Assembly: GCF_000002985.6 (NCBI RefSeq)
Contig: NC_003284.9
Coordinates: forward strand, 6,324,001-6,388,000
Origin: Caenorhabditis elegans
Lineage: Eukaryota > Nematoda > Chromadorea > Rhabditida > Rhabditidae
Length of the DNA: 64,000 nucleotides
Direction of reading: 5' to 3'
A program made the position numbers and the translations under genes. Numbering within the stretch: position 1 is the first letter of the stretch; each line of letters opens with the position of its first letter. Below the pieces are notes generated by a model that saw nothing but the letters and a program-made list of their open reading frames with translations, searched no databases and was not told where the DNA came from. Shown piece after piece: positions 17,835 through 51,592 of this stretch.

Positions 17835-20800
17835 ATGGTTATCTCGTCAAATGCATTTATTGTGGGTAGAGTCGGAGAACTTGATCTCGTAAGTTTTTAC
17901 TGTGAAAAAAATTAACAGTAATTTCTCAAGTTCCAATGTCCGGAGAATTTTGTAAAAAAACTTTTTTTTGACTAACTTCCAAAAATATCAATTGTTGACT
18001 GAACAATTTTTGCGCAGTTTAAAAGTTTTTCTATAAGTGTTGCTATGTTATTTAATTATTTTAGCACCATATAATTGATTTTAAACGTTTTCGTGCTTCC
18101 AAAAATGGTTGATTTTTTTCAGATAACGGCAGGATGGCATTTTTTGCAACGAACAATGAATAATGAAGATCGTCGTGGTTTTGAGAAAATGATCAGCATG
18201 CCAGGATTTTGCGTGAAGAAGTTTGAAGAAACGTATCTACTGAAGCGTGTTAACCCTTTTGCGCAAAGTTGGTTTTTTGTCTCGTAAATCTCAAGTTGTA
18301 AAGTTTTTTGGATGTAATATTGAATGAAATGTAGCAGAATGTAAAATGGAGTATTGTTCACAGAAGGGTGAGAGTAAAAACGGAAGATTTGAAACAAAGT
18401 TATGGTTAGGAAAATTTCAGAAAATTTTCTTCCTGATCTCACAGCTTAACAATTCAAAATTTATTAAACTTTATGTAAAACATATTAAAAACATAGTAAT
18501 TTTTTCAGCGGAAGAAGGCCGCATTATCAAATTCAACAGTTCGGACTGTCCATGCGGTAAATCTCAAGATGTTCATAACATTTCGGCAATGAAGGATCAA
18601 CTTTCGAATTTCCTCGATAAATGGGAAAATGTTCATGAGAAGTTTTCTCTTCCAACAGGTTCATCGGAACTTACCACTTCAAAAGTGAGCCGTTAATTGT
18701 GAATATCAAAGCAATATATTCAACTTGAATTTTCAGACGCCGATTGACGTGGACACAAAAGAACAAGAAAATCGTCTGAAACAGAAAGCGGAAGCTGCAC
18801 CAAAGAGCACTCCAATTGAAAATCACAAGAAAAATATCCAAGCTTTATGTAAGCAAAATGCAGTTGCTGAGCAATGCCTGTGGAACGTCTATCATGTTTC
18901 AGGAAAACCCGCAGAGAAAAAGGAACAACGAAATGATATGGATAGAAACATTTCAGGGGTTTCTGTAAAAGACTATGAAACTTTGAAAAACTTTGAAGAT
19001 AAATCACCACCCCAAGCAGAAAATGCGTCGTCAAGCAAGAAAGTAAGTAAACGTATTCTTATATTTCTTTTTAATCTTTATTATTTTCAGGATGAACCTA
19101 TTTCTGTTGAGTGCACCGATGAAACGTCAAGCCGTCTCAGCCCCGCTACAGATATCAGTCATGAAATGGCGGAACACGGAACGCCCGACTCCGGAATGAT
19201 CTCCGACGTCAGCGAAATCAAGGTTCTGCCTGCAGGAAAAATTGAGAAGAAACTAATAAAGGAATTGAATCCTGAGATGATGGTTGGTCGAGATGGTCGG
19301 AGATACCGTCAGAAACTTCGCGAAGCTGAGAAGCAGGCGACTGTAGAGTTCAAACTTGAGAATTTTGAGCAAACTAATGGCGAAGCCCAGAGTGTAGAGA
19401 ACGATATATTAACTGGAAAGGAGAAAAGACGCTTGAAAGATAAACTGCGAAAGGAGAAAAAAGAACAGAGCAAATTATTTGTTGAAAAAGACTTGGAGAA
19501 GAACAAGGTAACATATGTTTAATTTATGCCTAATTTATCTCAAAAATTCAGGAAAGCAGCAGTGCTTCTTTGAGTACAAACAAATTGGCGGAGTCTCCAA
19601 CTGAAGCAGATAAAAATAGCAACGTTATTCACACAAATATCAAACCAAAAGACATTTGTATCGAAACAGAATATCCTGCGAACAATGATAATAAGAAGAA
19701 AAGTGAAGTCATGTTTTCTTCCACGGTCACAAACGTGTTCGGGAGAAATGAAAATCAAACCAGTTTTGATGTGAAGGAGCACACTGTGGATTCATTTGAA
19801 TTACTACCCGGAGAGTATCGAATTTCGAATTTTGGCCAGCAGATGGCTGATACAACTTCTGCGGAAATGACTGCATTGGGAAAAATGCCTCAAGAGGCTG
19901 GAGAAGTGAAGCCAACTGTGCGAGAGGTCAGAATTCTGAAAAAAATAAATAAAAAGTAGTGAATTTGGAAAGACTACAGAAATTGAAATCGTGGACTTCC
20001 AGACTAAAATTTATGAAGCATAATAAACAAATGGAAGAAAAAACAGATCAACAAATCAGTTAAATTCCACATGATTCACATCACATGGAAATTCAAACTT
20101 TGTTGTTCTGTTTGCACGTAGACCGATCTATTGTTTCAGTTCCTTCGGTTTAAGATTTTTCGAGAGCGTTAATTTCAACAAATATAATAGAAACTTGATG
20201 CATAACTCTCAAAATATTGCTAAATATTCTTGTTCACTCAAAAAGCACATTCTAGAACGCCACGAATTTGCGTTTCAATCTGAAGTTTTTTAGCATTCTG
20301 GAGCCAATTTTTTACAAAGGGAACGGAATTTCCCGCTTTCTTTGAAAACCACAGTGAGTATTTCTACTTTTACAACGTAATTAAATAATTCCCACATACA
20401 CATTAGCCTTTAATAATTTACACTAAAATTGTATTATTCTCAAATATTTTCAGGTGATAGCAAACTCTCCAGAAGGTGACATAGAAGGCAAACGGCTTAG
20501 CAAAGGTCAGAAAAGACGTGCACGTAACAAGGCGAACAAAGGTGTCTACGTGGTGAATGAAAACGGCTCACATTCCATTGAGTTGCTGCCGGGAGAATAT
20601 AAACTTTTGGAACTCGATGAAAACAAGAAAATTCAAGAATTTCCCATTGACACGAGGCATTACATGAGAGATGATCAAACGGGTGGCGGATCAAAAATAG
20701 TTGAACAAGGACAGAGAACGAAAAAGAAGAAGGTACAAATGCCGAGCAAAATCAAAACTTTTTTTTCAATTTTCAGAATTTCTACGTTGCCGGGAACTTA

Positions 20801-21645
20801 TCTAAAAACATTCTTGACAACGGAAAGTGGTTGGCATACGTTATTGACGATAAAAACTCCGATGGTGTTCCAAGAGTGGGAGAAGTTAGCACGGAAGAAG
20901 TACAAGAAACTATCAAGTTACTCGACTCCAAAATATCTCATAATGCAATACAAGATAACAGTTGTTCCGAAGATTTTGAATTCGGATCTTCATCCAGTAC
21001 GAATTTTGTGACAGGATCTAGCAGAAGTTTATTGCCAGAGTTAGATGCGGATTTTGTTCGAAAAACACTTGCCGATTACGAGGAAAATGCAACAGAAGAT
21101 GCTGCTGAAAATAACAATGAGGTGTTTGAGTCGGCTAGCGAAGAGTTAGAAATGTTCATGAATTCGGAAGGTATTGCGCCAAATTTCCATTCAGAATGTA
21201 AGCCTTCAGATCCTTTCAAGCCAATCTGTTTGTTTTAAGTTGCAAAGAAAACTTCTCCGCTTCTCGTTGGTAATGCAGAATTCAAGGATTTTTGCAGCAA
21301 GTATTCAAATTCAAAATATGATAATAAGAGTGAGAAAACATCTAAAACACTTTGTGAATATTTTTAATTCAATTTCAGCAATCTCAAAACTGGTCAAGAA
21401 ATACATTGACACCAGAATTGTACACCATTACGAGGTAAAGAAAATTGAGAACACACCCAGTATCTTTTTTATTATTTCAGAGATTCAAAAAGCTTGCTGA
21501 CAGGGAATCGCACAGAATTGCCAAAAGCTGGACAAAAATCTACGAGACTTCCTCATATTCATTGATGGTCATGCTCTACACCAATAGCCCCAGCTCTTCC
21601 GTCGGTTTCTCTGATTTGGAGGAAATTTTGTTTAACGACAGATAA
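17835..21645 (+). CDS. Uncharacterised large charged protein (about 801 aa)
   Basis: Eleven exons, in phase: 17835-17888, 18123-18246, 18335-18367, 18509-18684, 18737-19042, 19091-19507, 19552-19926, 20454-20732, 20777-21197, 21379-21434, 21481-21645. Exon 3 is inferred from the need for a phase-1 junction and is the least certain. The N-terminal 50 residues are hydrophobic/aromatic, a CPCGKS motif follows, and then long Lys/Glu-rich stretches. Three short basic segments look repeated (GRDGRRYRQKLREAEKQ, TGKEKRRLKDKLRKEKKEQ, SKGQKRRARNKANKG), as does ELLPGEY (in exons 7 and 8). Basic, disordered and possibly RNA- or nucleus-associated, but I do not recognise the family. Its last two exons have the same size and phase plan as the genes at 22.4, 26.3, 40.5 and 46.0 kb. 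Confidence 0.72.
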
Positions 21646-22358
21646 ATCACTTTTGATTTGTGTTTTCAAAATACTGGAAGAAAATTTTTATGTTTCTATT
21701 TATAGTTTTATATATGTATTACATTGCTTGTAGACTTGTATCTGATCAAGGATATCACTTATTAAAAAAAAAATTTCATTACATTTCTTTCACCTTCTTT
21801 CTCTCATTCCGTTTTTATTCATGACAAAGATTTTTTTTGCACAAAAGATAACTGTCAACAACACTTTTTCTGTACGGTGTCAATGAAATATGCAGTCACA
21901 AAATATCCAAGACAGCGATTCAACCAGTTTTGTAGTATGAAATATTTCGAACAAGGCAAGTTACTGGGAAAAATAAATTGCACAGTTTTTTTTAAAATTT
22001 GATTGTTCCAAAAATAATTGCAACAAAAAAACTTGAGAATGTATTGGTCAATGATGGATGCTAATATGACATAACGGAACAATAGTTCAATGTACAAGAA
22101 GACTTACAATGTACAAGTAGAAATATGTACAAGAAGACTTAAAGAAAACAAACAAGTTAGTAGATCAATTTAATGTAAGTCAATAAATGCTCATTAATGC
22201 CTTAACGTTGCAGATACATTTACATTCATTTTTAAATAAGTTTACGATTGACTTTCAAAAACAAAATTATCAAAATCATCAATATGTAAAGAGAAAAATG
22301 GTTTTGAACCACACACAGAAACTTGATTAATTATACACAATACAAACTGATTCAGCAA
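21646..22358. other. Convergent intergenic region
   Basis: 3' UTRs of the 801-aa gene and of the minus-strand 205-aa gene. A short direct repeat (TGTACAAGAAGACTTA) occurs twice around 22092-22142. Nothing else is seen. Confidence 0.5.
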
Positions 22359-23113
22359 CTAAATAAATAGTAATTTGTCTAGAATTGGTTCGTAACCAAC
22401 AAGAAAAAGGTTTTGAATTGAATTCAGGAGGTGTGATTTAAAACTGGGATCAGTTGTTGAACAAGAGTAGTTGAAGATTGGAAAAAAGTTCATCGGCATG
22501 TAATCAGTAGCAATTATCAAAATGATCAGTTTTTCTAGTGCATCATTGTTCAGAAAGTTACTTTTCAGGTAATCCTAAAAAATGTCATGTATGTCGAAAA
22601 ATAATTTAAAGACTCACTTTATGATATAACTCAATGAGCAGACCAATTTCAGCTCTCGCTTCCATATAATTGTCTGAAAAATAAGAATAATAACATTTAC
22701 TACTAATTATTTGTTTAACCATTCTGCTTGTTAATGAAATGCTCGAACTCTTCATTAACAACATCATCGTAAAATCGGTTGTTAAGTGCATCAATTAGTG
22801 GCTTTTTATTGGAAAAGTAAACCGTTCTCCATTTTGTTAAGAATTTAGATATACCAATATCACTCAATTTGTCTTGGTTGCCATTAACAGTTATCATTTT
22901 GTAAATAGCTTTCAGAACTTCTGTATTCACATTCGGGAGGTTAAGCAAGTGACCCAAAACGGTGCCGTGTAGTGCTGACTCTGAAAATTACACAGAACAA
23001 ATTAAAATATTAAGTCTCACAGCCTTACCATTGGAAAATGTCGCACCCATTTTTTCCTTAGCAGCGCATGATGGAATAGAGTGGAGTTTGAAGTTTTCCT
23101 CGACTTCTTTCAT
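22359..23113 (-). CDS. Uncharacterised nematode protein (205 aa)
   Basis: Four exons, in phase: 23113-23029, 22980-22720, 22673-22618, 22574-22359. The start is the first in-frame ATG (MKEVEENF); a second in-frame ATG 21 codons later begins MGATFSN, which would fit an N-myristoylation signal if it were used. The upstream reading frame is closed. The protein is mostly helical-looking and hydrophilic with no signal peptide. The segment PLIDALNNRF, ending with the phase-1 junction INKQN|D, matches [10 protein letters not shown] ... QNITN|D in the plus-strand gene at 26.3 kb. The penultimate exon is 56 nt in both, so the two look like diverged paralogues. I do not recognise a named family. Moderate confidence that it is a real gene. 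Confidence 0.72.
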
Positions 23114-24576: not shown

Positions 24577-24595
24577 ATTGGAAACGTGGGTTTAT

Positions 24596-26315: not shown

Positions 26316-27876
26316 ATGGACAAATCAAAAACTTTATTCGAGCGGGAGCTGGAGGTGAGCGAAAGGATTAACTTAGATTTGAATTGTTCTCTTTCCACGC
26401 TTTTTTGTTAATCTTCAAAATTGTTTAAGCTGGCAGCAATTCTTCAAGTGCCGGTCACCAAGCGCTACGGAATTGTAGAGATTGAAGAGAAGCCGCACAA
26501 GAGATATTACAGACCGGAAGTGTTGAAAATATACATGAGGTGACACATTCTTTTGAAGTTGAAGTGAATTTTTTTTCATTTCAGAAGGAACTATCCAACT
26601 TTATCTATGAGATCCGACTTAATGGATGCATTGAACAAAAATTTCCAGTCATCTACTCATGCTTATTTCAGGCACTCCAAGTGAGTTTGAACTCAGAGGT
26701 TGAAAAACTGATATATTTCAAAATTGCAAAAATTTGTAACACATGTGTTTTTATTTTTGTTAGGTAATACATAATATTTCACATAAATTTAGTGTAGACA
26801 TGACGAAACTGGACTTTGGCAAACTAGAGAAATTAGAGAAATTGACCCTGCTATAACCCCATATAATATAACTTTAAGTCTAAACTTTAAACTTAACAGA
26901 TAAAACTGTTGAGATATTTTTCAAAGGGCAATATTCAGCTGCTTTATAGTTTTATTTAAACGAACCTATGAATAATGATTTAATAAAAGCTGAAATTTGT
27001 CTAATTGACTGGAACGTGCATAACTATTTATAGTTTCCGAAACGTATTAACAACGGAAATTTTAAAAGTTCATTTTCATTAGGGTGACTATTTTGGAAAT
27101 TTGACAACTGCACTCAAGAAAATTTACAAAAATGGCAAGCGTAATTTCAAAAAGGAGAAAAAACTCGAGAAGAACCAACAGTGTTTTACTGTACTAATAT
27201 TTTTGCTTTTCATAAACATGTTTTTATGAAAATCCAAAAACTTCGATTTCTCGTGCCAAATTTTAAAGATAAACAACTCTGCTAATTGTATTTATTCAGA
27301 AATTTAAATTTTTCAGAGTCAACAAAATGCAAAATATAACCAACGGTGAGTTTATTTAACACATAACATTTTTATACGACTTGAATTTAAGCTCACAACT
27401 ATATCAAACACCTTCTATCACAATCCGGCTATTTGCGATATCATAATCGCCATTTGAAAGGGGATAATTACAAATGTAATGCTTTAAAAAGTTGTTTTTT
27501 TTATAATAACTTTATTTCCAGATGTGATCAGACGTTTTAACGCTGCTTTGAAAAACTATAATAAAGAATTGTATTTGGTACAGATTTCACATGTTTTTAC
27601 TTTTTAATTTATCACTTTCAGGTTTTCGAAAAAACCGATCACATCCACTTTCTCCACGAAATGTTGTTCATCAAGAACCTGCGAAACTATCCATTTCCTA
27701 CAAACTGGGTATCTCTTGTTGCATTACACGACAACTCTCCAAAATTCGAACGTATTCTGGCAGCTATTCGGGTTGTAACGGAATACGATGGAGATGCTGC
27801 TCCAGAGTTTGAACCGGATACAGAAGTTAACGAAGACAATGAGTTACTTCTTGCAATGTGCAAAGATTTTGATTAA
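26316..27876 (+). CDS. Uncharacterised nematode protein (about 194 aa)
   Basis: Six exons, in phase: 26316-26354, 26430-26539, 26585-26680, 27317-27345, 27522-27577, 27622-27876. The start is the ATG after the TTCTCAG acceptor at 26282; upstream in-frame residues exist, so a further 5' exon is possible. The acceptor of exon 2 (TGTTTAAG) is weak. The protein has no signal peptide and contains [18 protein letters not shown] and [10 protein letters not shown], the latter shared with the minus-strand gene at 22.4 kb. A 56-nt penultimate exon precedes a terminal exon with [10 protein letters not shown] and an acidic tail ([17 protein letters not shown]). The C-terminal half resembles the genes at 40.5 and 46.0 kb weakly. 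Function unknown. Confidence 0.68.
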
Positions 27877-31647: not shown

Positions 31648-33424
31648 ATGCAAAGTGCTCAGAAATCAAAAACTAATGGCGATACTTCTCTATTCCTTAT
31701 GAAGGACATACCACAATATTGGTCTCCAGCTCTAAAAATTGGATCAGGGTGAGTGAAATATCATATTTTTGGACGTACAAGGTAGAAGTTGTCACTTTTA
31801 GGAGAAAGTTTTAATAAACAAATCCGAATCTTGGAAAAAAGTTCAAAAATTTGATCTTCTTATAATGTTAGTTTTTAGTTTAAAATTTCTAGTTAAAAAT
31901 CAGATTTTTTATGGTTTTCAGTCAAGAAATGATCGATTTTGTGTTACTTTTGAACATAACATTTTTAGAGCATTCGGTGAAGTAATGTTGGTGCATTCTG
32001 ATCGGTTGGACGCACGAGGAGAGCAAATACTGCATAATGAATTTGCTTTGAAAGTTATACGGTTTCCAGAGTGTGATTATCACAAAATTATCAGAGAAGT
32101 TAACACGCATACTTTGTGTCGGCATCATGATAATGTGCTCTTTATTGGTTCAATCTATTGTCAGACGTTTCAACAAGGGCTCAGAGTTCAGGCAAGACTT
32201 TTGAAAAACTGTTTTATGATGATTTTAGAGAATGCATGTTTTTCATAAAATGCATGTTTTGGTTGTATACTGTTTTATCGGAAAATTACCAACGGACAAA
32301 AAAGTTCATACATTTTTCTAGTGTGTTTTATTAATTTTCACATAACTTTTTTAAATATTGAATTTAGTTAAACATTGTCAAAGTTGAAAAATGGAATACT
32401 TTACCCAATTGAAAATTTGCAGATGTGTCTAGAGTATGCTGCATTGAGCGACTTATCACTTCTCGCCTCATCAGAAACATTCGAGAGTCATGTTGCCTAT
32501 ATTTGTAAAAATGTACGTAATCCAACCAGTTTACACATTAATTTTGATATTACAGTTGATATCAGCGCTTATACATATTCACAATTTGGGAATTGTTCAT
32601 GGAGACTTGAGTGTTAAAAATATATTAATGACTCACGAAGGTGTTGTGAAACTTTGTAAGTTTGAATTCATCTGGAAATTGTTTTAATCATTTTTTTCAG
32701 CTGATTTCGGAATGGCTAATACATTTGAGCAAACGAGAAAATCAAAAAATCAATCAATTTTAGGAACTCCAGGGTTTGTAAGTGTTGTTGTATTTTTATT
32801 TGAAATGTGGAAGAACATCGTTTTCATATTCCATCAAAATTTTGACAAGAGAACAAATTTTAAAACATTTGTAAAATATTATACTGTTTGAAACAAACAA
32901 GACTAAAATATTAAGTAAGAATAATCTTGTACTTTCAGATAGCTCCAGAAATCATCAATTTGCAAGGTTACGACGGAAAAGCAGATCTATGGGGTCTAGG
33001 TATTCTGTCACTTTTTCTTCTCAAGGGAGAGAATCCGTTCAAAAAATGTACTCAGTTTGATCTAGAATCGGTATGAATTATTGTTAAGATGCCATCTAAA
33101 AGATCTATTTTTCAGTATAAAGTCTCAATATCCGAGAGTTTCTACCCAGACTACAGCAATTACTCAACCCCGCTTCAGGTGAAAAAAATGATGTATAAAA
33201 ATTATTGTTTTTTTTTATTTTAGGAATTTATGTCATCTTTGAAAGATTACAACCCAGAATTTCGGTCATCAGCGCTTCACGCCTCATCACAAACATATCT
33301 TAAGACCAGTTGCTCACAAAGTGAAATTTTGAATTATTATAAACGGCTGAGAAGAACACGTGGGATGGATCTGCCGTGGCCAGAAGAAATTCATACTTTT
33401 TCTGTTCCAGTAAGCTTGGAATAA
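31648..33424 (+). CDS. Protein kinase, probable Ser/Thr type (328 aa)
   Basis: Eight exons, in phase: 31648-31748, 31969-32191, 32423-32512, 32556-32655, 32701-32777, 32939-33070, 33116-33178, 33224-33424. A complete minimal kinase domain is visible: the Gly loop GSGAFGEV, NEFALKVI with the ATP lysine, REVNTHTLCRHHDNVL with the helix-C Glu, HGDLSVKNIL (catalytic Asp and Asn present; the usual HRD Arg is Gly), DFG, the activation segment ILGTPGFIAPEII, and DLWGLGIL. It is therefore probably active, but lacks the Arg used by activation-loop-phosphorylated kinases. Intron 2 starts with GC rather than GT (CAG|GCAAGA). The last exon contains a good donor at 33410 that would allow an alternative end using 34015-34053 in phase. 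Exact group not assigned. Confidence 0.86.
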
Positions 33425-33781
33425 TTTTAATTGGAGTTTGGTAAATCTAATTTTTTAAATGGTATTTTCTCATTGGCCTGTGTTCAATTTTCATTTTTTT
33501 TTTTTCAAGATTATGTAATTTTCACAAATGACAACTATCATACGGTTTGATTTGAGCTTCAACACGCTTGATTATATTTTAGTTTTCTCCCAGCTTCATA
33601 TTAAATATGTATCTTTAAAACGGTTTCTATAACATATTTTATCAGCACATAACTTCAATTTCACAATTCAAACAATAATAAACCCGATAATAAACCATTT
33701 CGATCTGTTTCGAATCTGTTCTTCCTTCCTTCGCCGTCGTCGTCGTCTAGTCCCGAATCCCTTCCGATCGTCCCAATCCAC

Positions 33782-33850
33782 CCATCCATCCATCCATCCA
33801 TCCATCCATCCATCCATCCATCCATCCATCCATCCATCCATCCATCCATC
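33782..33850. repeat. (CCAT)n microsatellite, about 17 units
   Basis: Uninterrupted tetranucleotide run of CCAT. On the minus strand it reads as an artificial MDGW repeat, which explains the spurious open frames there. It lies inside the possible alternative last intron of the kinase gene. Confidence 0.95.
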
Positions 33851-33883
33851 CCAATCGTCCTGATACTTCCATCCATTGTACTT

Positions 33884-35192: not shown

Positions 35193-35877
35193 TAGTTCCT
35201 CAGAAGTGAGGAGTCGATGCACGAAATGTAGAATAAAATGTAAAATGCTCCCAACCTTGACACAACGCTTGCAAAATTTGTATACATCCACTTTTCTAAA
35301 TTTAAACAATCATCCGTATGACGACATTTATTTAAAATACTATAATGAACACAAAGCAGAATATTTTATTGAACCAAGCGAATTTATAATTTTTATTACA
35401 TATACGATTATAGAACCATTTATTGAAAAAATTGTTATTTACACAAGTAGCTAAAATCAACAATTATAGTTTGGAGCGTTTTACAAATTCAGCTTTTGCC
35501 TCGACGCCTGAAAATGATTTTTTTGTTAAAATTAAAATCAAAAATGTTATCCAATTTTTCAGAAATTCAATTTGAAGGTAGAGTATCGTCAGTAAAGACT
35601 TTCGTTAAAGATACAACCGTAACATTTAAGCATACACTAAACGTAATAAAATGGCGTTGTGTGTTTGTGTCAAAAAATTAGGCCTAAGTTTGTGAAATCT
35701 AGGCAAAATGTAGCTGATTTTTTAAATGAATGCTGTTTAAATTTTTCTTGTGAAATGCTGTATTTTTTAATATTTTCACTTTTAGAGAAGTTTAAATAAT
35801 GTTGCTGGTTTGAGACCCTAAAATTTTAAAATATAAGTAGTTACAACATTTCAAAAATGGTAAATGAAACTTTTTCA

Positions 35878-36758
35878 TTATTGACAACAGAACTTACAAC
35901 TGCACACTCCTTCGACATCCTGATACACGTTCCAGTCATATCCTTTTCCACACTCATTACAAACCATCGTCACGACATCCCATTTCATTTTGGACAGAAT
36001 ATACTCAACTGTGACATCACCAAGTTGTGCAACAAAAGGTGTTACAAAAACTCCAGCCACAATAGCACCGAAAACTGTCCCAATGCCGGGAAGAACAGCG
36101 GTACCAATCGCACTACCTAGAAAACAGTTAGTTGTTTGAAACCATAACTATTTTTGAGTACCAGCATATGCCGAAGCTGATCCAGCAGAGTATTCTCCTA
36201 CTTTCGTTGCCAGAACTTCGACCGTATTCCGTGTTGTGTTATGATCAATATCTTTCTTTACTTCTTTGGAAATTTGATAAGCTTCGAAAAGTAATGTAGC
36301 AGCTGCGAAAGCAGGAGCAATTTGATTGGTTTTTTCAGCAACCTTCCCAAGTATTCCAAAAATTTGTGCAGTTATCGGGTTTATTTTTATGTGTGGATCA
36401 GTCACTCCTGTTATAGCTTTATTGATGTTTATATGATTGAAATTCACGTTTCCATGAGGACGATCAAATCGAACCCACCACTTTGGGTTTCCTAGTTTTG
36501 ATATGTGAGCCTTATCAAAAAAGTTTACAATGTTTGAGTTTCTGCCATTTGTTTTAATGATATATTTTGTCCAATTCCGGTGAGTAGCAACAACAAATCC
36601 TCGAAGGCCGTCAGCAATAATTGGATGCAACTGGAAATACAGATTTTTTAGATTACTACATATATTTTTTCAACGTATATATATATATATATATATAAAC
36701 AGACTTTTTCAATATGTTCCTGACTCCACTGATTCAAAAAGTTCATGCTTGAATTCAT
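35878..36758 (-). CDS. Uncharacterised protein: RFDRPH/DPH block, glycine-zipper segment, Cys-rich tail (253 aa)
   Basis: Three exons, in phase: 36758-36705, 36630-36162, 36116-35878; ATG directly after TGTTTTTCAG. After a helical N-terminus (MNSSMNFLNQW) comes a compact block of conserved-looking polar residues (WWVRFDRPHGNVNFNHININ then TGVTDPHIKI, about residues 68-100). I associate this block from memory with bacterial secreted or polymorphic-type proteins, but I cannot name the family securely. A Gly/Ala-rich hydrophobic stretch follows across the exon 2/3 junction (AGSAIGTAVLPGIGTVFGAI), a glycine-zipper-like segment that could insert in a membrane. The C-terminus is CNECGKGYDW...CSCKFCC, a possible metal-binding or disulphide tail. 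No signal peptide is seen. Intron 1 contains an AT microsatellite. Horizontal acquisition is possible but unproven. Confidence 0.75.
36675..36697. repeat. (TA)n microsatellite in intron 1 of the 253-aa gene
   Basis: A run of about 11 TA units within the 74-nt intron between 36704 and 36631. Confidence 0.9.
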
Positions 36759-37858
36759 CTGAAAAACATAGTTTTAGAATGATCAATAGTTACAACGTGT
36801 TTTGAAGAGATGTATTCAGACCCGGTTGGTAAAGGAAAAAAAACGTATGAAACTGTAAAAAAATCGTTTGAAATATGTAGTTAACAATCGATGAAAATAT
36901 TTCACATTTAAATACCCTATTTCAGAAAACATTAAACTATTTGAAAACGCGTGACTTTTAAAAAAAGCTCATCAAACTCCCTAGTAGCAAAGTACGCTAC
37001 AAAGACAATGTGGTTGTATATAGAAAAATATATTTTATTTTTAAGTGAAATTTTTCGAAAAAAAAAGAATTAAGAATGAGGAAAAATTATTTCCTTTCGA
37101 ATCGATTTTTATGCAAACGGTAATCGCTTTGTTTGACTGACATGTTGTATCTTATCAGAAAAATTGAGGTAATGACCTTACACTTGACATGAATCATCAC
37201 CCTTCAACCAAAGTTTGGAGGAAAATAATTTAATATCTGTTCGCCAACATTGTTGAAATTCTAACATTTGAATTAGATATCAATAAATAATGTTTCAATT
37301 AATAATATTAAATATACTAAATTACAAGTCACATGCAATTTAACAGCTTTGACGTTTGAACGGAAAGCATAATTTTTTGTTGAGTTTATCGAATATTTAA
37401 CAGTGCAAGAAAGATTTATAGATCCATTTGTTTTTTTCAAAGTTTTTAACGCTGATGATTCAACACTTCAAATTTTCAGATGTTTTCCTCTAAAACTAGG
37501 CACGTATAAAAAATCTTAAAATATCGGCTGAGAAACTTATCACTTAATATTTTCGTATCTTCGTTTTTGGTTTTGTTAGTTGTTTGTGAAGCAAAAAAAT
37601 TAGCTAGTCCTGCTTATATATAATCCATATTTGCAGTCGACATCTTGCTGGCCAGTGTTTGACAATGGTACCTGTGTCGCATGTAGCCCAACAACAACAA
37701 GTTTTCACGAAACATTTAAAATGACATGATTTGTAGCCTCTTCTTGTGACATATAAATTCTGTGCTCTGTTGCTTAATAGCTTGCTTTTCTTTCAGGGTT
37801 TGAAAAACGACGAAGAGGTAACAAATCGTTCTTCTTGAACTTTAGAAATTTTCACCGT
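36759..37858. other. Intergenic, upstream of the 253-aa gene
   Basis: AT-rich; presumed promoter of the minus-strand gene. No exon, tRNA or clear repeat until the repeat block that begins at 37859. Confidence 0.5.
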
Positions 37859-38015
37859 TTTTTTGTCGGTATCAGCATTTCTATTCATTTCTTCGACTTT
37901 TTCTGAGATTGTTAGGCATTATTTATAAATATCATTGCAAACTCTAGTTGGAAACTGAAAAAAAAATCTTGTTGGAAACTACTCATAAACTACTGCTACA
38001 GGGAGCATAAAGATT
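37859..38015 (+). repeat. Direct repeat, left copy (about 155 bp)
   Basis: Shares runs such as TTTCTGAGATTGT, GGAAACTGAAAA, GTTGGAAACTACT and CTACAGGGAG in the same order with 38922-39075. The two copies sit about 1.06 kb apart in the same orientation and bracket the nested elements at 38111-38720. Confidence 0.75.
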
Positions 38016-40495: not shown

Positions 40496-41717
40496 ATGAG
40501 TCTCCCGGACAGTGAGACCCTGATGAAAACAGTGCTCGAAAAGTATCCAGACGCTACTGATTTAAAAGAAGACATTGATGTGCATATGGAAGAGTTCAAA
40601 GCTTTTGAGTATCGCTTCAAATTGACCAACGTTGTTCTCCGGGCTCTTACTCTTCCCATCCCGAAACTTGAAGATGAATCAGAAGTGGTGTTCGAAGGAA
40701 GAAGTATCACGTACCACTGGACTTTCTGTGAGTTTTGAAACGGGGAAAATCTTTGTTATTTGCCTTGAATAGTTTAGATTTTTTGAATATGGTCCGTTTT
40801 GTAATTGAAAAAACGTTTGCTCAAAAACACTCCAAAATAAAAGTTAAACAAAACTATACGTTCGACAATCAGCAAAACATTGGGAAACTGATTTCCGGTT
40901 GCCAAAAAGATGCCGTAATATCTACAACCAAGAATGCATTGTTTTCTTCAAAATTAGAATTTTTTGTTCCAGGGACCGGAGACGACGAGAAAAAAATTGT
41001 GTCCTGGGTGAATTATAGCCCGAAGCCAATCGCTATTCAAACGTTGAAAAATAAAAGTTCCCATCGAAAGTAAGTGTTAAAGAACAGTTACCGCCTAATA
41101 TAAGAATAATTTATAAGAATAATTTTGTCAAGTTTGTTTCAGGAAAGACATTACCTACAGCCAGTATATTGATATCAAAGGCACCGTTGAGCCAGGATTT
41201 GTCGTACCAAAAAACTACTTTGTGCCACATCCTGACCCAGACCTCCAACCAGAGGATGCCGTTGTTCACTACCAGATTTTGACCAGCATGAAAGATTCCA
41301 TCGAGGATATGCCTCATTTGATGTCGGGTAAATACAAAAAATGACAAATAATAATTGACAAAATTTTGGAAACAAAAAAAAATTGGCAAAATTTTGAAAA
41401 CAAAAAAAATTGTTCCAGAAACAAAGCTCGATTGCGAAATGTACATAAAGGACCGCTTTGAGGAGTTGCTCCAGGTTTGAGAATAAGCATGTGTTAATAG
41501 TTTAAATGTATTCTATATATTGTAGGAGTACCAAGAGAGCAAGAACACATACTACTTGGCCCGTGCCGACTTTTACCGCAAGCTGAAATTCGAGCACTTG
41601 GATCTGGATCATCAGCTTCTTATCTCCGCAGCCAATCGAGATTGGATTGACGGATATTTCTTGGAGAAGGAGCTTCGCGCTTCATATTCCCTCAAAATTG
41701 ATAGTCTTGCGTGTTGA
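40496..41717 (+). CDS. Uncharacterised nematode family protein (253 aa)
   Basis: Five exons, in phase: 40496-40727, 40973-41069, 41143-41327, 41419-41474, 41526-41717. The start is MSLPDSETLM, with no upstream in-frame extension. It is a soluble, acidic, helical-looking protein without signal peptide or membrane segment, with a Pro-rich middle (KNYFVPHPDPDLQPED). The fourth exon is 56 nt (phase 1 to 0). The last exon carries YYLARADFYRKLKFEHLD and YFLEKELRASY, which align with IYLAKAVFIKFLDFDRLS and CYVEGILRRHY in the gene at 46.0 kb, and DHQLLISAANRDW with NYQLALILAKRNGW in the gene at 49.6 kb. Its first exon is duplicated at 42015-42252. Function unknown; no named domain recognised. Confidence 0.78.
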
Positions 41718-42014: not shown

Positions 42015-42424
42015 ATGCCACCTATCATTCCTCTAAACCTGACGCTGTCTCATATATTGGGACGAATTCAGCGAAAGTATCCAAACGCGACCATCGATGC
42101 TCAGAGAATCAGTGCTCATATGGGTGAATTCAGAGTTCTGGAATGTTATTTCAATATGACACGCGTCGCCATTAGAGCAATAACTTACCCGCAAGATGAG
42201 AATGGAAAAGAATCATGTGCTTCTGGGGAAGTACATTATCACTGGGCATGCTGTAGGTTTTTGAGACAGAACAGTTGACACTGCCAATATATTAAAAGAA
42301 TATGTGTTTGTAAGCTGTCGTCCAGAACTACACCGTTATCTCTCCACTACCGGCAATTCTAAAAAGCAATATCAAAACAAGTTGTCAGGTAGCTCCTCGA
42401 ACAACTAAATCAATAAGTACATAG
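42015..42424 (+). CDS. Truncated tandem relative of the 40.5-kb gene (about 115 aa)
   Basis: Exon 42015-42252 starts with an ATG two bases after GTTTCCAG and aligns along its whole length with exon 1 of the gene at 40496: LGRIQRKYPNATIDAQRISA with LEKYPDATDLKEDIDV, HMGEFRVLECYFNMTRVAIR with HMEEFKAFEYRFKLTNVVLR, and the ending HYHWAC|T with TYHWTF|T at the same phase. A shortened second exon, 42315-42424, would follow a poor acceptor (GTTTGTAAG); it keeps NYTVISPLPAILKSNIK, similar to VNYSPKPIAIQTLKNK of the parent, then stops at TAG. The three downstream exons are missing. It is either a young pseudogene or a short, separate protein; the intact 79-codon first exon argues that it has not been neutral for long. 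Confidence 0.6.
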
Positions 42425-45400
42425 ACGATTTTAATTACTATTTTACTGTTTGAAATTGTGTTTTGTTTAGATGAGAAAATATTAACATTATATTGACGGT
42501 ATTTATGAATAAAACACATTTTAGAACATTCACAATTGCCTTATTGTTTATAGAAAGTATTACGAAAATAGACGTAGAAGATTGTTACTTATAAATCTTT
42601 TATTTTCCTAATCAGTGCTTCACTCAGTGTTTTTTCCTGAAAAATGATTAGGAATACAAAACTAATAGGCAACAGTTTTCAGTTTATAATGTTACGTTGA
42701 GCGTAATTCAACATTTTTCAGTCTGCGGTGTATCACCTAATCTTCAAGTTTACATCATACATTACAAACCGAGTGGAAACAATGTTCAACAAAAGAAGAA
42801 AAACAACGAGAACCTTGCCGTCAGAAAATGAGCGGCTAACCAATACTGTTTCAAAATTTTCAATTGTAGATCTCCTAACTATCATCTCTACTGTCCGTAT
42901 TAACTTTGATTTTTGTTAAGTGTTTCCCATTTTAATTTTATTTTTAAGCAAATAACATTATGCAACTTTCCGGTATAGATTTTAGCGATCAAAATTTTCT
43001 TGGAACGTGTTCTGATAATTATTTTTACTAATCAAAATAAATGCTCCGTCAGTTTCTGGCTTTGTGTTTAAGATTTTGAACATCGGGTATGCAATTACAA
43101 CAGAGTTCTCCAGAAAAATGCTTCCTTGAATAGATTGTCACAGATATATGCTTTGAAATGAAAATATAAACGAACACGTTTCGAATATTTGAACTCTAGG
43201 CAGGTGAGAAAACAAGAGCAAACATCTTCACAATTTAATTTTTAATACAAACTCAGATATGTTGCCCCGTTAGAAATTTTGGAAATTTTGGAAATTTTGG
43301 TACTTGTGTAATATGCCCCCGCCATTTTAAGAATTAATTTTTTAACTTATAAAATAAAAAAGTGTACATTTTTTTTGAATTTTTAGGCTTAGGAAAACAT
43401 CATTTTTAAGCTTAGCGGGTATCACGTTTAATTGAAACGGATAAATTGATGGAAATTTGATTTATTTCTAAAATGGCGGGGCATAATACACAAGCACCGA
43501 ACTTTTTACTGTAGTAGGTTTAATAACAAAAGGGTAAAAAATAATTAAGTTTCAAATATGACCGGTTTGCATTCTTATTATAAACATAATGGGACCCACA
43601 TGACCATTCCAGAATGAGAAATCTGAAAAACTTATCAAAAATGCTTTTGGCAGGAAAAATTTCAAAATACTACAGGGTCAAATATCTGAAATTTTGTAAA
43701 CTTGTTTCTGTAACAACGGCTGGTAATCAATTTTTATTAATTTAAAACTACTTTTTGTTTTTTGTTATTTGTTGTTCATTAGCGGTTTCAAGATAGTTTG
43801 TGCACTTTTGAAATCAAAGAGCATTAAAAATTTGGGGATTATCGTTAAAATAGCGAAATATGGTTCATTGCTCTTTTAGGCTGAGAAAAGTAACGAATTT
43901 GGAAATGAAATCTTTTGAATGAAAATGTATAAAAATTTATTTCAGCGAAATTTGACAGTATAAAACTGACAAATTTTGAGGTGTTAGCGGAAAACGGAAC
44001 TTTTTGTGAAAACTTTGAATTGCCATAACTTTTTTTTGAGGATTACGTTTCATCATAAATATCTGTCGTCCTAATTTGTGATGCCTTTCTTTAAACTTCC
44101 TGATATATTTCTGATTTACTATAAATTTATTTCTGTATTTCCAACGTAAGTTGTCAAATGCCAGAATTGTTGATTTGACACCCTCATTCAGATTTTAGTT
44201 TCAGCATGCAATTTCCAGCTTGACCACATTGCAGGTGCTCTCACGACTAACGATTACGCTTGTGTAGAGAAAAGTGTGGATCGAATCAATCTTTTTGTTC
44301 CCAATAAAAAAGTAATAAAATTATTTTGAGCATTTTTGGGTCTATTTGTTTCATTTTCTACTTTGCAACAGTTCCATTGTTTGGCTACATTCTATTTAAT
44401 TTAAAAAGATGAGTTTTCAAGTTTCCGTTTTGAAGTTGTGAATATTTGAGTGAACCAGGAAAAGTCGGAGGTGAAAATGAAGAGTAAAGTAGGAAACACA
44501 CTCTTTATTTTCAGCTGTGCTCCTCTCATTTTTTACACTACACTCTACATACATTTTTAGCGTTTTGCTGTGCATTTCATTAAGTTTCTTTCAAATAGAT
44601 TAAAGATCATTCAGATGTGTAGTGTTTTAATCGAATATAGACGACTTAATATTGATCATAGTACACCACTTTAGACGCATCTGAATTTCTGCCAATGTTG
44701 CTTTATTTAGGGAAATGTTCAAAGATCACGCCGCCAATTTTTGAAACTTGTTTCTTTTTTACTCTGAATTCATAAATGTTTATGACAGATTCAAGAGTTC
44801 AAGAGGCTTGTTGTGTGGTTTCTAGAATGTTCTATTTTAAGTTGTAAAAAAACGAATTTTTGAAACGTCTGAACTGGATTCCTGATTTCCTTATGTAATT
44901 CTGAAAATGCTTCAAAATACATTTTATGTATTTTTTTAAAATTTTGAGTGCAAAAGCTTATGGTTTAATTGGTGTTCAATTAATCCTATATAAAACATTA
45001 TAAAAGCTACGTTAAAGGTGCCCAAACGTTACAGCAAAATTTTGAAACAAATTTTTTAATTCTTTAAAACTACAGTCAAAATGAGTTAAAATAGTTGGTT
45101 TTCGAATATTCTATGGGTTTAAAAATGCAACAATGCTCTAAATTTCTTAAGAATTGCCAAACTTCACAATTTACCAAAACTTCGACTGAAAATTTTGAAA
45201 AATCTTAATATTTTCGAGGGCGTTTTTCTAATATTCGGTCACATTTTTAACCACTCATTTTATATTGAATGAAATGTCTTGCAAATTTTTCAGACCAATT
45301 TTTTCTAGTTCAATGTACTCTTCTGTGGATAAATTAATTATAGGGACCAATCTGAAAATTTTATCTTCCAATGACATACATTTGTTTAATTCAGAAATCA

Positions 45401-46033
45401 GCCCAAGTAAACTCTGTACTGGAATTTTTTGTCTTGAAAGATTTTTGATTTGCTTTTCTTTGCACCTTTTTTTTCAATGTAGAAGAATTGTTGTTTTTAA
45501 TGGACAAAAACAGAGTTCCGTCATCATTTTTACTGTTTTGGAATTTGTCGTGATAGTTTTAAGTCTTCCTTCAATTAAAAATGAGCAAATCTAAGCTTAA
45601 ACATATTTTCACAAATTTTTACATTTTTCATTGCATTTCGATTTTTTACATATAATTTCAATTAGAAAGCTCATCCAAGAACATCAATTTCCATGTTCTC
45701 TCGTTTGCGACGTATCGCCCACTCAAAGAACATAACGAGAAAGAGAAGCCGTGGCTCCACCCTATACACCGTGATTTGCTCTCCGCATGGCTTACCCATT
45801 TCAAACCTTTAGAGGCGTCGTCGTTCTTTTTGCCGCCCTAATAAACATTTCCTCTTTTGGCAAAAAAGAGCAGCTAGTGAACACAGAGTACACAGTTTCT
45901 CTCTTTTTTTATATATATTTTTTACTTCGTCATCAACTATTATTATGTGTCCTGTGCTCACCTTTTTTGTCTGCAGCTGTCCACTTTTTTGCTTTTTTTC
46001 TTATTTTAAAAATAAATTATTTCAGAACCAAAT
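42425..46033. other. Large intergenic region (3.6 kb)
   Basis: Contains the small inverted-repeat element at 43297-43501. The rest is AT-rich without a supported gene. The block at 45660-45850 (GCGACGTATCGCCC, GTGGCTCCACCC) is GC-richer and is probably the promoter of the gene at 46034. Confidence 0.5.
43297..43501. repeat. Small inverted-repeat element (MITE-like, about 205 bp)
   Basis: Imperfect 33-bp terminal inverted repeats: TTGGTACTTGTGTAATATGC... at 43297-43329, and the complement of ...GCATAATACACAAGCACCGAA at 43469-43501. The interior shares GGCTTAGGAAAACATC and GGTATCACGTTTAATT with the repeat at 38591-38720. No coding capacity. Confidence 0.7.
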
Positions 46034-49000
46034 ATGGAGCAATTATTTCAAAAATACGAGAAAAAATTGAAGCTCCAGAATGTACAAGCACGCATCTGGG
46101 AAGAAAAACATACATATATAAAATCCGGAAAAGCTGTTTTCAAAGTTCCAAACCCGCCAAAACAAGAGAGAACTTTCCGTTGGGTAATCGGTAAGACTTT
46201 TCTTTCTTTTTTAGAGTTCTTTTTAGACGCTTTATGAAAAACTGCTATTTCCGGTAGTAATCTACTTTTTTCCAGAAGCTCCGGCGAGCAGCTGCCAGAC
46301 ATCACGTGGATATTCTGTCAAATTCACACCCAGTCGAGTGAAAAGAGCAAAAATCCCGGAACGAATGTACAATATGAAACGATGTTTGTGAGTTTAACTT
46401 TTATTCATCTATGGAAGACGGAAGTCAATATTCCAAAAATATTCCACAGTGATATATAATTAATTACAACATTCACGCAGCATTTTCCATGCTAGAGATC
46501 GTGAATTTTGTTCAACTAATGTTTATGTATCACAAGTGCCTGGTGCTGAAGCATAGTACATCAACATTAGATGAAACGTATCTAATAATAGTGTACTTTC
46601 AAGCACAAAGCACATACTTACTCTCCAGACCTCTGCAACTTTCCGTCTCAATGGATTGCAACTTTTTTTACTGGCGCGAGGGTTCTCATTGGTTTCTTTT
46701 ATTCATTTTTTAGTGCAATGTTTGGTTTGAAGAACTTTAAATTGGTCACATTAAAGGAGGGTACGGTCAGTGGAGAAATTATAAAAATTTTATCCATGAT
46801 GCGAAAATGACCAAATATCATAATAAACATTTTAAACAAATTTTGGATTTTTAAAATTTCAAGTCAAATAGTGGTGAAAACTGTGTTTGCGCTACTTTTC
46901 GTTTAAAGTATTCTCTCAGCCCCATGAAATGTTGGAATATGAATATTTCAAACATAATTCGAACATACAACTGGAAGGCAACTTTTTTTTTATTGATCGT
47001 TGACTTCCAACAAAAAATTGAAAACTGAGCTATCACTGTTTTAACAACAAAAAACATTCAATTTTTTTTTTGAAAAAATTTATGATGGAATTTGATTATG
47101 TTAGCACCACAAGAATAGTCTAGAACATAACTTTTTTTCAGAGTAGAATATTTTTCACAGGTAAATCACCGCCTTGAATTATGCTTTTCTACACATCACT
47201 TTTATTTTTAAAAAATACATCATCGCTCGTTTGCCTCGCATTAGCTAACATAAGTCTAGCAGGAAAAAAAAGAAGAAACGTTGACAAATTTTTTTGCCTG
47301 GGTCTCTCGCTATGCTGTTACTCGGTTCACTCGTAGCGGTCGTCCATATCACTGCTGTCGACAAGAGAGAATAACATGACTGCTTGGCGCAATGGTAGCG
47401 CGTTCGACTCCAGATCGAAAGGTTGGGCGTTCGATCCGCTCAGTGGTCAAATTTTTTGTTTTTTAAGTAGTAATATAATACAATTTAATTCAAAATTACA
47501 CGCAAAAATTTAATAAAGTAGTCCAAAATGCTAATCGTGTGAAAAAATGCCTTCTGGTAATGTATTTCTCACACGAAAATTTGTTGAAATTGGTTTTTGA
47601 CACAAGCGAATGTTGCAATTATTTTCTTGATTTTTCTACAAATTTGAAAATCAAATTTCACGACTGCAAGTATAACATTAAAAAACAATATACCCAAGCC
47701 CACAAAAAAACGTATTCTGAAAAATTGGTACAATTGAGAAATAAAATTTGAGAATCCCTTATCTTTAGAAGTTGATCTCTTGATATTGATACAACTCATG
47801 CTAGACAGTGTCTACTCTGCTCAAAAAGTCAATTAGTAATTTGATCCGCTAGCAATCTAACGCATAGGATGCACCCGCAAACTGAACACCTATATCCAGA
47901 CAATTGTTGCGCAATAATGTCTAAGTCTCCTGTATTTGTGTGTATTTTACGAAACATGTAACGGATAGGAATTTTGCTGACCTCACACGTATGGATGATG
48001 TGCAACAACTTGCGATTAAGGATAGGATATGTGTCAATTAGAGCAAATGGATTATACTAATGAAAACAATTGAAGAGTTTTTTACCTTTACGGAAATCTT
48101 TATAATTAGTTCAACTTGAACAACGGGAATTTAATTTTTTTTTTAACATGGGATAAATGAAATAATTAAGATGAACAAATTTCAGCCAACTCCGCCGAGA
48201 CAGTCGTATTGCATTGTCAGATGCAATTTTCCAGCCGGAAAAGAAGACAAACACGATGGATCATTTATTTACCGCTTCTACAGCTCCGGAATACTCGGAG
48301 AAGGAATTGCGACAGATAGAAGATTTTCAGTCATTTTTTGACAATTGGGATGATGATTACTATACGGAGCAAGGTACTTTTAGAATTTCTGAAATATTTT
48401 TACAAAAATTACTATTTTTAATTCTAGAAAAATATCCAGTTATATATGACCTCATAACAATTCAAATTTCAGATTGTCTAGACCTGATGCAACAAGCTGT
48501 AAATGGAAGAATCGAAGTTTATCAAGAGGTTAGAAAAACCATTTTAATAGAAACCTAACTTTTAACAAAGCTCAATAACTTTAAATCTTCTTAGAAAAAT
48601 TTTTGTTGAGTAAAAATAAAAAATAAACACTAAAAAAACAAATATATGCAGAATAATCAAAAGAGTTTTGGGTCAAGATCGGAACATTAATTTTTTCCCC
48701 GTTTTCACTTATTCTTGTCAAAATGTATTAAACTGAAAAACCACGAAGTTTCGAGAATTCCAAAGCACTCAGACGAATCTCTTCGCTGTGAAATACATAA
48801 AATGGTTACTTGAAAACAATTAAATTCTAATATTTTTAATATGTAAAAAAAATTTGATTCTTATTTTCCAAATTTAGCAAACCTCTTCTGAAATCTAGTA
48901 AAATGGTATCCGATTTTTCATAGATTTGGAGTTTAACTTGAACATATTCAGTTTGTTGAATTGAATCGGTACCGCAGAAAACATTTCAGGTATACAAGCA

Positions 49001-49157
49001 AACTTCCAACCCAATATATCTAGCAAAAGCAGTTTTTATCAAATTTCTCGACTTTGATCGACTCTCTCCACTTCATAAAACGTACTTGATGCTCAGCGAG
49101 GAATGTGAATTTCCAATGTGCTATGTAGAAGGAATTCTCCGTCGTCATTATGAATAA
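46034..49157 (+). CDS. Uncharacterised nematode family protein (226 aa), with long intron hosting a tRNA
   Basis: Five exons, in phase: 46034-46190, 46276-46387, 48186-48373, 48473-48528, 48990-49157. ATG eight bases after TTATTTCAG. The N-terminal half is basic (YEKKLKLQN, PPKQERTFRWV, SRVKRAKIPERMYNMKRC), the middle is acidic (FFDNWDDDYYTEQ), and the last exon has IYLAKAVFIKFLDFDRLS...CYVEGILRRHYE, clearly related to the end of the gene at 40.5 kb. The penultimate exon is again 56 nt, phase 1 to 0. Intron 2 is 1.8 kb, long for this region, and contains a complete tRNA-Trp gene at 47378-47449. No signal peptide or membrane segment. Function unknown. Confidence 0.78.
47378..47449 (+). tRNA. 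tRNA-Trp (anticodon CCA)
   Basis: A 72-nt cloverleaf: acceptor GACTGCT pairs with AGTGGTC (two G-T pairs); D stem GCGC/GCGC; anticodon stem TTCGA/TCGAA around loop CTCCAGA, giving CCA; T stem GGGCG/CGCTC around TTCGATC; discriminator A. No intron. Internal A box (TGGCGCAATGG) and B box (GTTCGATCC) are intact, and TTTTTT at 47452-47457 provides the pol III terminator. It sits in intron 2 of the 226-aa gene in the same orientation. Confidence 0.97.
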
Positions 49158-49647
49158 TTGTTTTCTGGCTTTTCATATTATTTTTAGCCATTATTATTTT
49201 TTGTTGCTTAGATGACATTTTGTTTATTGTATTTGAAAACCAGTATTTTTTGCTCTTTTCATTTTGATTTCATTTTTATTCCGTTCACATTAATAGTGTA
49301 ATTGGGGATTTGTTCATGGTATTTCATATTTTTAGTGTCCTGGAAATCGTATACTTCATATTTATAAAGATGTATTTTAATGATTTCTGCATTCGTATCC
49401 ACTTTAAAGTATATAGCCAGGTTCCGCTCACAGTAAAAGAATCAAGTATAACGCAATAAACAGAGTTCAACAGTGTTGAGCCACGCCCACGTGACCTCTC
49501 TAAGGTAACAGATATACTATAGACAAACTCCGCCTATTATGTCTAGAGCAGCTTTGTACCGTATCATTTGCAACAGTTGCTCTCGCTCCATTGTGACTTT
49601 TCTGAGCTCAAAATTCTAACCATTGTTATTTCAATTCGTATTCTAGA
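49158..49647 (+). promoter_or_regulatory. Intergenic and probable promoter of the 49.6-kb gene
   Basis: 3' UTR of the 226-aa gene, then a GC-richer block at 49480-49600 that contains CCACGTGACC, a perfect E-box core CACGTG. No exon. The role as promoter is inferred from position. Confidence 0.4.
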
Positions 49648-51592
49648 ATGCTTCCGGCCGCGAATGCTAGCAACAGCCTTCCTCGTAAAAGTATGAGAAC
49701 CGTGAAGTCATCCAGACGTCGCAGCCTTGCTCCAAATGAATGCTTTAATACTGAAAAGGAGAAAGGAAACGATCTTTTCTCGTCTCTTCATCGAAAAATT
49801 GTCAAAACTGTCAGGAGATGTAAGTAATTATTGGTAGTAGTAAAATATGTAATAGTTGAAATAAAACCAGTAAGTATGCTTCCATGTAGATTTTTTTTAA
49901 ATTCATGTGAGAGTTGCATTGAGTAGTAAGTATCACGCATCCAAGAATATATGAAACTTATGTTTTTGTGGAGTGGGATTCTTTTTCATTGCCGTTACTA
50001 ACATTATTGTAGACTTAAGTATAAGTTCTTGAAGCTAATGCGCTCAAAACACGACTTTTTAAAGGAGTAGTAATGGTTCGGACAATTTTGAACGTAGAGA
50101 CGCAAAATAGGCTCAAATAAACTGAATTCTGAGGCATCCCAAAAATTCTTCAAAAATATATTATGCCGGTTTAAAATAACTGAAAAATTAAGATAATTTT
50201 TTCTAAAATTTCATATTTTACCAACTATTCCGTTTCGCAAGTTTTTGAAATTAAGTTTTATTTGATTATCTTTTTTTGTATCAATTTCAGTGATTTTCGG
50301 TTACTTATCAGTGTATTCAAATCAACTATTATACGTGAGATGAACAACCAAAATATATTTTGAACAAATGAATAATAATTTTCAATTTTTTGTTCGTTTC
50401 AGCACATTTTGCATCTATATATATACGTTTGAAATACCCCATTCCATTACTCCTACTTTGAGCCCAAATGATAATTGTTCCCAATGTAGTAGAAGTGGTG
50501 CCGTAAAGAGTCCGTATTGAACGAACATTGGCCGAAAAAAGACAGGCGCTACCAGTCCAATCTGAAAAAAAGTAACTCACAATAATTCAACTCAAATAAC
50601 TTGCAGCTATCGCTCCTGAACAACTTCGTTTGAGAACTGATGAAGAGAGAAGAGACCACGAAGCCTGCGATTTGGAAAACCAGAAAAAATTAGACATTTG
50701 CAAGGACCAGTACGAAGCTGAGCTTGTAATGTGCAAAACCCAACACCAAAATGAACTGGACGCGTGAAATTGAGCAATACAAACAAGTCGTTGCATCATA
50801 TAAATTGAAGATGAAGCGGATGGAAATGAAGATCAGCGACATATCAGAAGAAAAACGTCAATCATCGATGCTATTCGATCCTGCCGGAACTCATTCGGAT
50901 GACAAAGAAGTTTGTGAATACTGGAGAATGATTAATTATGTGGACCAAAACTTCAATTTGATTGGAGGAATGATAAAAATGCATCAGTACTGTTTGTCTG
51001 TGAGTATTCCAGATTTCAGTTATTAAGCGAGAGCTCATAAATTATTAATTTTTTGCAGGTGTACAATAAAAGTGGATCTGGATACTTCCGTGATGGAGCA
51101 AACTTCTTCCGAAATGCGGATCCATTGAATCTTTCCAACGATAGCAAGATTCCCATCCAAATGGTTTGCATGAATCTGTGGACCTGCGAAAAAATCGAAA
51201 TCTGGTATCGAGATTTTTACTCGCATCGTTACTTGGAGCAAGTCGATGGCAAGGAAAAATACGATGAAGATCAATATACAGTTTTTGACCAGTTGTTTGA
51301 CAATCTTGGCAGTGACGCGAGCACATTGATGGAGCAACAAATCGAGCTCATGAGAAATTACTGTCAAGCGAAGGCTGAGCTTACAAACATGGTGGAGTTC
51401 CAGAGAGGCGTTCGGTTTTGGAGAATGGTGTCACCAATTCATCTGCCACGTAACTATCAGCTGGCGTTGATTCTTGCCAAGCGTAATGGATGGGTGCATG
51501 AAGATGTGGAGCGTTGGTTCAGAGTCTTGTACGACGAGTCATGCTGTGTTGGAGCCCGAGGTCGTGATGTCTATCTAAATTTCGGTCGTTGA
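49648..51592 (+). CDS. Uncharacterised coiled-coil protein of the 40-50 kb family, with a reading-frame break
   Basis: Exon 1 49648-49819 (MLPAANASNSLPRKS, then a very basic SSRRRSLAPN) joins in phase to 50607. That frame runs through a Glu/Lys/Gln-rich coiled coil and hits TGA at 50765-50767. The next open frame, shifted by one base, continues the coiled coil (EIEQYKQVVASYKLKMKRME) to a donor at 51000 and the last exon 51059-51592 (178 codons). Two explanations fit: a 49-nt intron 50726-50774 (GTAATG...TTGAG; in phase but with a poor acceptor; total about 349 aa), or a one-base frameshift. The C-terminus (NYQLALILAKRNGWVHEDVE) resembles the gene at 40.5 kb. Intron 1 is 787 nt. Function unknown. 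Confidence 0.65.

Follow-up and report, generated by a model that had tools for sequence, protein, structure and literature searches.

We examined a cluster of uncharacterised genes in a 64,000-nucleotide (nt) stretch of Caenorhabditis elegans DNA (contig NC_003284.9, positions 6,324,001 to 6,388,000; hereafter the window), on a chromosome which we take to be X. A first-pass annotation of the window had pointed to five genes that end with a 56-nt penultimate exon, entered in phase 1 and left in phase 0, followed by one terminal exon. In our gene models all five are placed as it had claimed, and its protein lengths of 205, 194, 253 and 226 amino acids (aa) agree with ours, but for the first gene we obtain 827 aa rather than 801, and about 813 aa should 20997-21038 prove to be intronic. 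The genes of the cluster, including two that are additional to these five (G42 and F51), and an intronic transfer RNA (tRNA) gene are as follows, in window positions.

17835..21645, + strand: A17, 11 exons, 827 aa; 56-nt penultimate exon 21379-21434, terminal exon 21481-21645.
22359..23113, - strand: B22, 4 exons, 205 aa; 56-nt penultimate exon 22618-22673, terminal exon 22359-22574.
26316..27876, + strand: C26, 6 exons, 194 aa; 56-nt penultimate exon 27522-27577, terminal exon 27622-27876.
40496..41717, + strand: D40, 5 exons, phases 0,1,2,1,0, 253 aa; 56-nt exon 41419-41474, terminal exon 41526-41717.
42015..42831, + strand: G42, 2 exons, 115 aa; truncated, paralogous to the N-terminal part of D40.
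46034..49157, + strand: E46 (C03B1.2), 5 coding exons, phases 0,1,2,1,0, 226 aa; 56-nt exon 48473-48528, terminal exon 48990-49157.
47377..47450, + strand: tRNA-Trp (CCA), within the E46 intron between exons 46276-46387 and 48186-48373.
50811..51592, + strand: F51, 240-aa frame with two tandem module copies; intron 51000-51058, phase 0.

The models were built with a small gene finder, whose codon and splice models were self-trained on the window and 20 other 10-kilobase (kb) loci, and its output was checked and hand-edited exon by exon. Uninformed, the finder picked the borders of the 56-nt exon in 5/5 genes. When run freely it made this exon penultimate in A17, C26 and D40 and overran into further exons in B22 and E46, where the exon became penultimate after the region had been bounded. 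Two tiny finder exons were removed by hand from E46, and the upstream exons of C26, whose 56-nt exon has a weak donor (gtacag), were hand-chosen; the finder prefers the same ones when weak acceptors are allowed. For the A17 tail, the first choice of the finder was another frame, with a weak acceptor before 21240 excluded; with this acceptor allowed, the frame given by the first-pass annotation wins by 1.0 score unit (136.4 vs 135.4).

E46 was identified as C03B1.2 because three published primers for that gene have exact matches in the window, two of them at 42765-42790 and 43591-43612 and the third, on the - strand, at 49142-49169 (PMC4999229). C03B1.2 is reported to be the host gene of the intronic tRNA-Trp sup-7, an amber suppressor placed in the third intron (PMC4999229), and the tRNA gene at 47377-47450 is taken to be sup-7. 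It lies in the second coding intron of our model, a difference that an additional annotated exon upstream could account for.

To judge how unusual the 56-nt exon is, we took as controls the 36 finder genes with at least three exons and a score of at least 15 in the 20 other loci (200 kb, six of the loci flanking the window). Among their penultimate exons none is 56 nt long (0/36); among their internal exons one is (1/295), and none combines this length with the phases 1 to 0 (0/295). Five such exons in one cluster are not expected by chance. A scan of the window and the 20 loci together (264 kb) for 56-nt exons with good splice sites, made with a profile that included the five members themselves, returned 46 candidates with the five members at the top; the candidate in sixth place lies across A17 and makes use of the A17 terminal exon, and the remaining candidates score far lower. 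By exon architecture, then, A17, B22, C26, D40 and E46 belong together, F51 has the intron position only, and G42 is without a found tail.

We next compared the encoded tails without gaps, using the exon borders to fix their register, over the 19 residues of the 56-nt exon and 14 of the terminal exon. The five peptides together score 11. Control exon ends, drawn 10,000 times in sets of five, give a mean of -299 (standard deviation 47, maximum -77), and no set reached the anchored score (0/10,000). With the outer two of the 19 residues cut, one control set in 10,000 was as high over the inner 17. Sliding the registers reproduced the anchored score in 1/10,000 cases for the 19+14 residues and in 8/10,000 for the 19 residues alone. 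The result survives leaving out any one gene (p <=0.0003 for the 19+14 residues, p up to 0.007 for shorter stretches). Hydropathy profiles agree as well, with p 0.01 for the 56-nt exon and p 0.001 for the module as a whole.

Because D40 and E46 are the closest pair, A17, B22 and C26 were also tested against these two only. No control draw was as high with any of three matrices (BLOSUM62, BLOSUM45 and PAM250), whether the junction residues were kept or removed; each setting was given up to 20,000 draws. When each gene was set against the other four, 0/112 control exon ends were as high for D40 and for E46, 0/112 for C26 (shuffle p 0.0036) and 1/112 for B22 (shuffle p 0.02). A17, which the first-pass annotation had tied in with doubt, passes the same test, with 0/112 controls as high and a shuffle p of 0.008. 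F51, set against the five, was equalled by 2/112. On these sequence comparisons A17, B22 and C26 are linked to the D40/E46 pair and only weakly to one another. The sequence of any one of the three would not single it out; architecture and sequence together do.

Without anchoring, the likeness of the tails at 40.5 and 46.0 kb, which in the first-pass annotation had aligned best, is real: the D40 and E46 modules align by Smith-Waterman with p about 9e-6 against shuffles. The two genes also have the identical series of intron phases. By the same method the D40-F51 comparison (p 0.006-0.011) and that of B22 with the second F51 module (p 0.006) are suggestive, and the N-terminal parts of D40 and G42 are significantly similar (p 7e-13), as is also seen with tblastn (E value 8.5e-5 with D40 as query, 7.5e-7 from G42 to D40). 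No C-terminal module was found in G42, which is a copy of the first two D40 exons only.

F51 is likely a sixth family member with a doubled module. Its two halves are alike (p 4e-9, Smith-Waterman), and among 6615 reading frames in the 264 kb it is the best match of a D40 plus E46 profile outside these two genes (E 0.086, the next being 1.1). A profile of these two proteins had been proposed in the first-pass annotation; here it gave no significant match to A17, B22 or C26. F51 is without the 56-nt exon, and its intron 51000-51058 stands at the place of the intron that follows that exon elsewhere. HHalign, which takes no account of introns, aligned the first residue after the D40 intron with the first residue after the F51 intron when the D40 plus E46 profile was compared with F51 (P 0.0019, probability only 14%). 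The resemblance that had been reported at 49.6 kb is sited in the 50.8-51.6 kb frame with the doubled module. A genome-wide F51 match with E 0.098 came from a composite query that was composed by hand with D40, E46, F51 and C26 already known; it is not independent and was not counted. Upstream of F51 (49648-50811, + strand), a coiled-coil-like frame stops near 50768 and the F51 frame opens beyond it; the interruption between about 50768 and 50811 may be a frame break, an overlooked intron or the boundary of two separate genes.

Searches with A17, the A17 tail, B22, C26, D40, E46, F51 and G42 against the whole genome (tblastn; 100,286,401 bases, 7 contigs) gave self-matches, the D40-G42 pair and one C26 noise match, and no relative elsewhere above noise; this search first retains the best candidates only, and its counts are lower bounds. 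The C26 match (C6:10005245, E 0.021) has two internal stops and was judged noise by eye. Within the window and the 20 loci, tblastn found nothing below E 0.07 besides D40-G42, and in a D40 scan of bacterial and archaeal genomes 0/8 pattern matches were confirmed. The first-pass annotation could assign the genes to no known domain, and this was borne out: no Pfam family, globin, SPK, F-box, MATH and BTB included, came above cut-off for the seven proteins or their tails (for whole E46 a 235-aa version with the two spurious tiny exons was scanned, and its tail was scanned correctly), and NCBIfam gave no match for D40. Against PDB sequences, the N-terminal part of D40 matched DpHF18 (E 0.0006) and DpHF19 (E 0.001), presumably designed helical filaments, by their names, followed by lectin-like receptors at E >=0.1; F51 had no match, and the module profiles gave nothing below E 0.16.

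Taking these results together, we lean towards the view that A17, B22, C26, D40, E46, G42 and F51 are one locally duplicated, fast-diverging family with a shared C-terminal module, for which the 56-nt exon and the terminal exon code; the family is spread over about 34 kb, and the homology of its members is well supported. The earlier proposal of one fast-evolving, locally expanded family is supported in that the anchored modules beat both shuffles and control exons and tblastn finds no relatives elsewhere. Local duplication of an ancestral gene, accompanied by at least one inversion, would have been followed by divergence so rapid that the traces left are mostly intron positions and a hydrophobic residue pattern.

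Several observations weigh against this view or parts of it. Unanchored, A17, B22 and C26 show no significant similarity to D40 and E46 (modules p 0.08-0.73, whole proteins p 0.07-0.55), and HHalign of the three against the D40 plus E46 profile gives P 0.14-0.36. Agreement within A17, B22 and C26 alone is weak (p 0.015-0.25). Of the ten anchored pairs, A17-E46 (p 0.001) and B22-E46 (p 0.011) are the only two with p under 0.05, and F51 forms no such pair with any of the five genes. Each member was also left out in turn and ranked among the 45 candidate sites that remained of 50 once the four other members and an overlapping site had been removed; D40 and E46 came 1st, A17 and C26 2nd and B22 3rd. 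A profile of the two F51 modules places two control frames (E 0.13 and 0.53) above D40 (0.6), and the hydropathy of the 14 residues after the intron shows no agreement (p 0.49). The finder's codon and splice models come from self-training, and three of the junctions score weakly, namely the A17 acceptor (0.0) and the C26 acceptor (0.8) and donor (1.2). B22 has a stretch with a hydropathy of 1.68, near the usual membrane cut-off, and may contain a membrane segment. The helical model of the module, described below, is itself weak, and a Foldseek search with the second F51 module gave 11 matches with a best E of 4.4, none of which stood up. Finally, C03B1.2 is reported to be undetectable both by a green fluorescent protein (GFP) reporter and by RNA sequencing (RNA-seq) (PMC4999229).

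The alternative that survives best, one we hold to be possible though with well under even chances, is that a 3' cassette was copied, the last two exons being duplicated and joined to unrelated N-terminal exons, i.e. exon shuffling and not duplication of whole genes. It would account for A17, B22, C26 and the D40/E46 group having no significant whole-protein alignment with one another and for their differences in exon number (11, 4, 6 and 5) and upstream phases, and F51 suggests that the module can duplicate on its own. Yet D40 and G42 have N-terminal sequence in common and D40 and E46 have all phases in common, which is whole-gene duplication for these genes at least, and the tails are so divergent that loss of N-terminal similarity is expected. 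The first-pass annotation had in addition noted a common stretch of B22 and C26 just before the 56-nt exon, PLIDALNNRF in the former and a counterpart of 10 protein letters (not shown) in the latter. This likeness is visible by eye and would speak for inheritance of more than the cassette, but the whole proteins of B22 and C26 are not significantly similar (p 0.16). In a bolder form, which we consider doubtful, the tail would be a small domain made of helices only and not described before, which travelled through this X-linked cluster as a mobile pair of 3' exons, was fused to N-terminal parts of separate origin, that of A17 among them, and became doubled in one gene. If so, the transfer of a new fold as an exon cassette would make the cluster a compact and accessible example of how domains arise and are shuffled.

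We think it unlikely that most of these genes are relics in decay, with little function left at the protein level. The reported lack of a C03B1.2 signal with the reporter and in RNA-seq, the truncation of G42 and the frame break upstream of F51 would all fit decay. Opposed to it are five full-length open frames, codon log-odds that are positive in all seven genes, and the optimal-codon use of D40, which lies above that of 97% of 35 control genes. Moreover, differences at codon positions 1/2/3 amount to 0.49/0.47/0.59 for D40-G42, 0.57/0.50/0.74 for D40-E46 and 0.59/0.48/0.74 for the two F51 modules; third positions differ most in each of these three paralogue comparisons, which fits selection on the protein.

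We give a still smaller chance to a family confined to D40, E46, G42 and perhaps F51, with the exons of A17, B22 and C26 unrelated and their likeness due to chance or to helix-like composition. Ordinary pairwise and profile tests do miss significance for these three genes, decoys outrank each of them when it is left out, the A17 frame hangs on a weak acceptor, and the agreement among the three is weak. However, they are three more genes of this one cluster in which the rare exon length recurs with identical phases, and against D40 and E46 they score higher than every control draw and also above shuffles. 

A degenerate globin (helices A-C) in the tail is very improbable and was rejected: the A17 tail matches a cytoglobin chain (PDB 6q6p) with E 0.0088 in the full search and 1.9e-5 with a trimmed query, but this query was chosen after the match, the likeness covers only 52 residues, at which point the gene ends with no room for a globin domain, two other cytoglobins reach only E 1.1, A17 and its tail match no Pfam family at E up to 10, and no globin is among the matches of profiles built from seven or from five modules.

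Returning to one duplicated family, we considered what its proteins might do. The highest 19-residue hydropathy is <=1.20 in 6/7 proteins, and we regard a soluble, intracellular protein as probable for each gene, with the least certainty for B22. A17 carries several clusters rich in lysine and arginine. A small bundle of helices is the probable form of the module, as predicted by one low-confidence model: that of the second F51 module, from an alignment of four rows, has five helices and is all helical (predicted local distance difference test, pLDDT, 60.5; predicted template-modelling score, pTM, 0.50). An AlphaFold2 model of the F51 terminal exon alone had a pLDDT of 37 and was not used. Our reading is a family of mostly soluble proteins with a C-terminal helical module, the helix bundle being weakly supported. 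That the module serves in interaction is a guess that we would rate below even: the bundle could conceivably bind one protein partner common to the family, with the dissimilar N-terminal parts each binding others.

Fast-evolving, locally expanded families of C. elegans include those of the F-box, MATH/BTB and NSPF type. The present genes resemble them in forming a local cluster and in their strong divergence, and differ in that no Pfam domain comes above cut-off and in that there are about seven genes, mostly too diverged for single-sequence tblastn. The family would be small and new, and of an ordinary kind. Orphan genes of a well-annotated animal, mostly singletons by single-sequence search, would here be grouped by an intron position that serves as a fossil of their ancestry, and the host gene of sup-7 would gain a family that can be traced in other Caenorhabditis genomes. 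In the passages covered of the C03B1.2 paper, this gene, E46 itself, is treated only as a host gene, and no protein family, tail module or 56-nt exon is described (PMC4999229). More broadly, the family is undescribed in the literature passages covered, in which C03B1.2, C03B1.12 (lmp-1) and C03B1.14 are the only C03B1 genes named, a scope outside which WormBase and most subscription papers lie.

Two further genes stand amid the cluster. One (31648-33409, + strand), unrelated to the family, encodes a protein kinase (Pfam Pkinase, 6e-36), whose catalytic loop reads HGD where HRD is the usual motif. The other (35464-37888, - strand) is an uncharacterised gene of about 270 aa with a glycine-/alanine-rich hydrophobic stretch and a cysteine-containing tail, and its Pfam and NCBIfam matches lie only far below cut-off. 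The left neighbours of the cluster are collagens and a transporter-like gene, and the right neighbours are LAMP-like and immunoglobulin (Ig)-like genes, all named by eye from their translations. The collagen-like array (2388-11221, + strand) comprises three nearly identical copies and one more diverged, in frames from 2388, 5160, 7709 and 10322, and an apparent further copy lies at the left edge of the window. Between the kinase gene and the uncharacterised gene, a 4-base unit is repeated 19 times at 33776-33851, with 97% matches.

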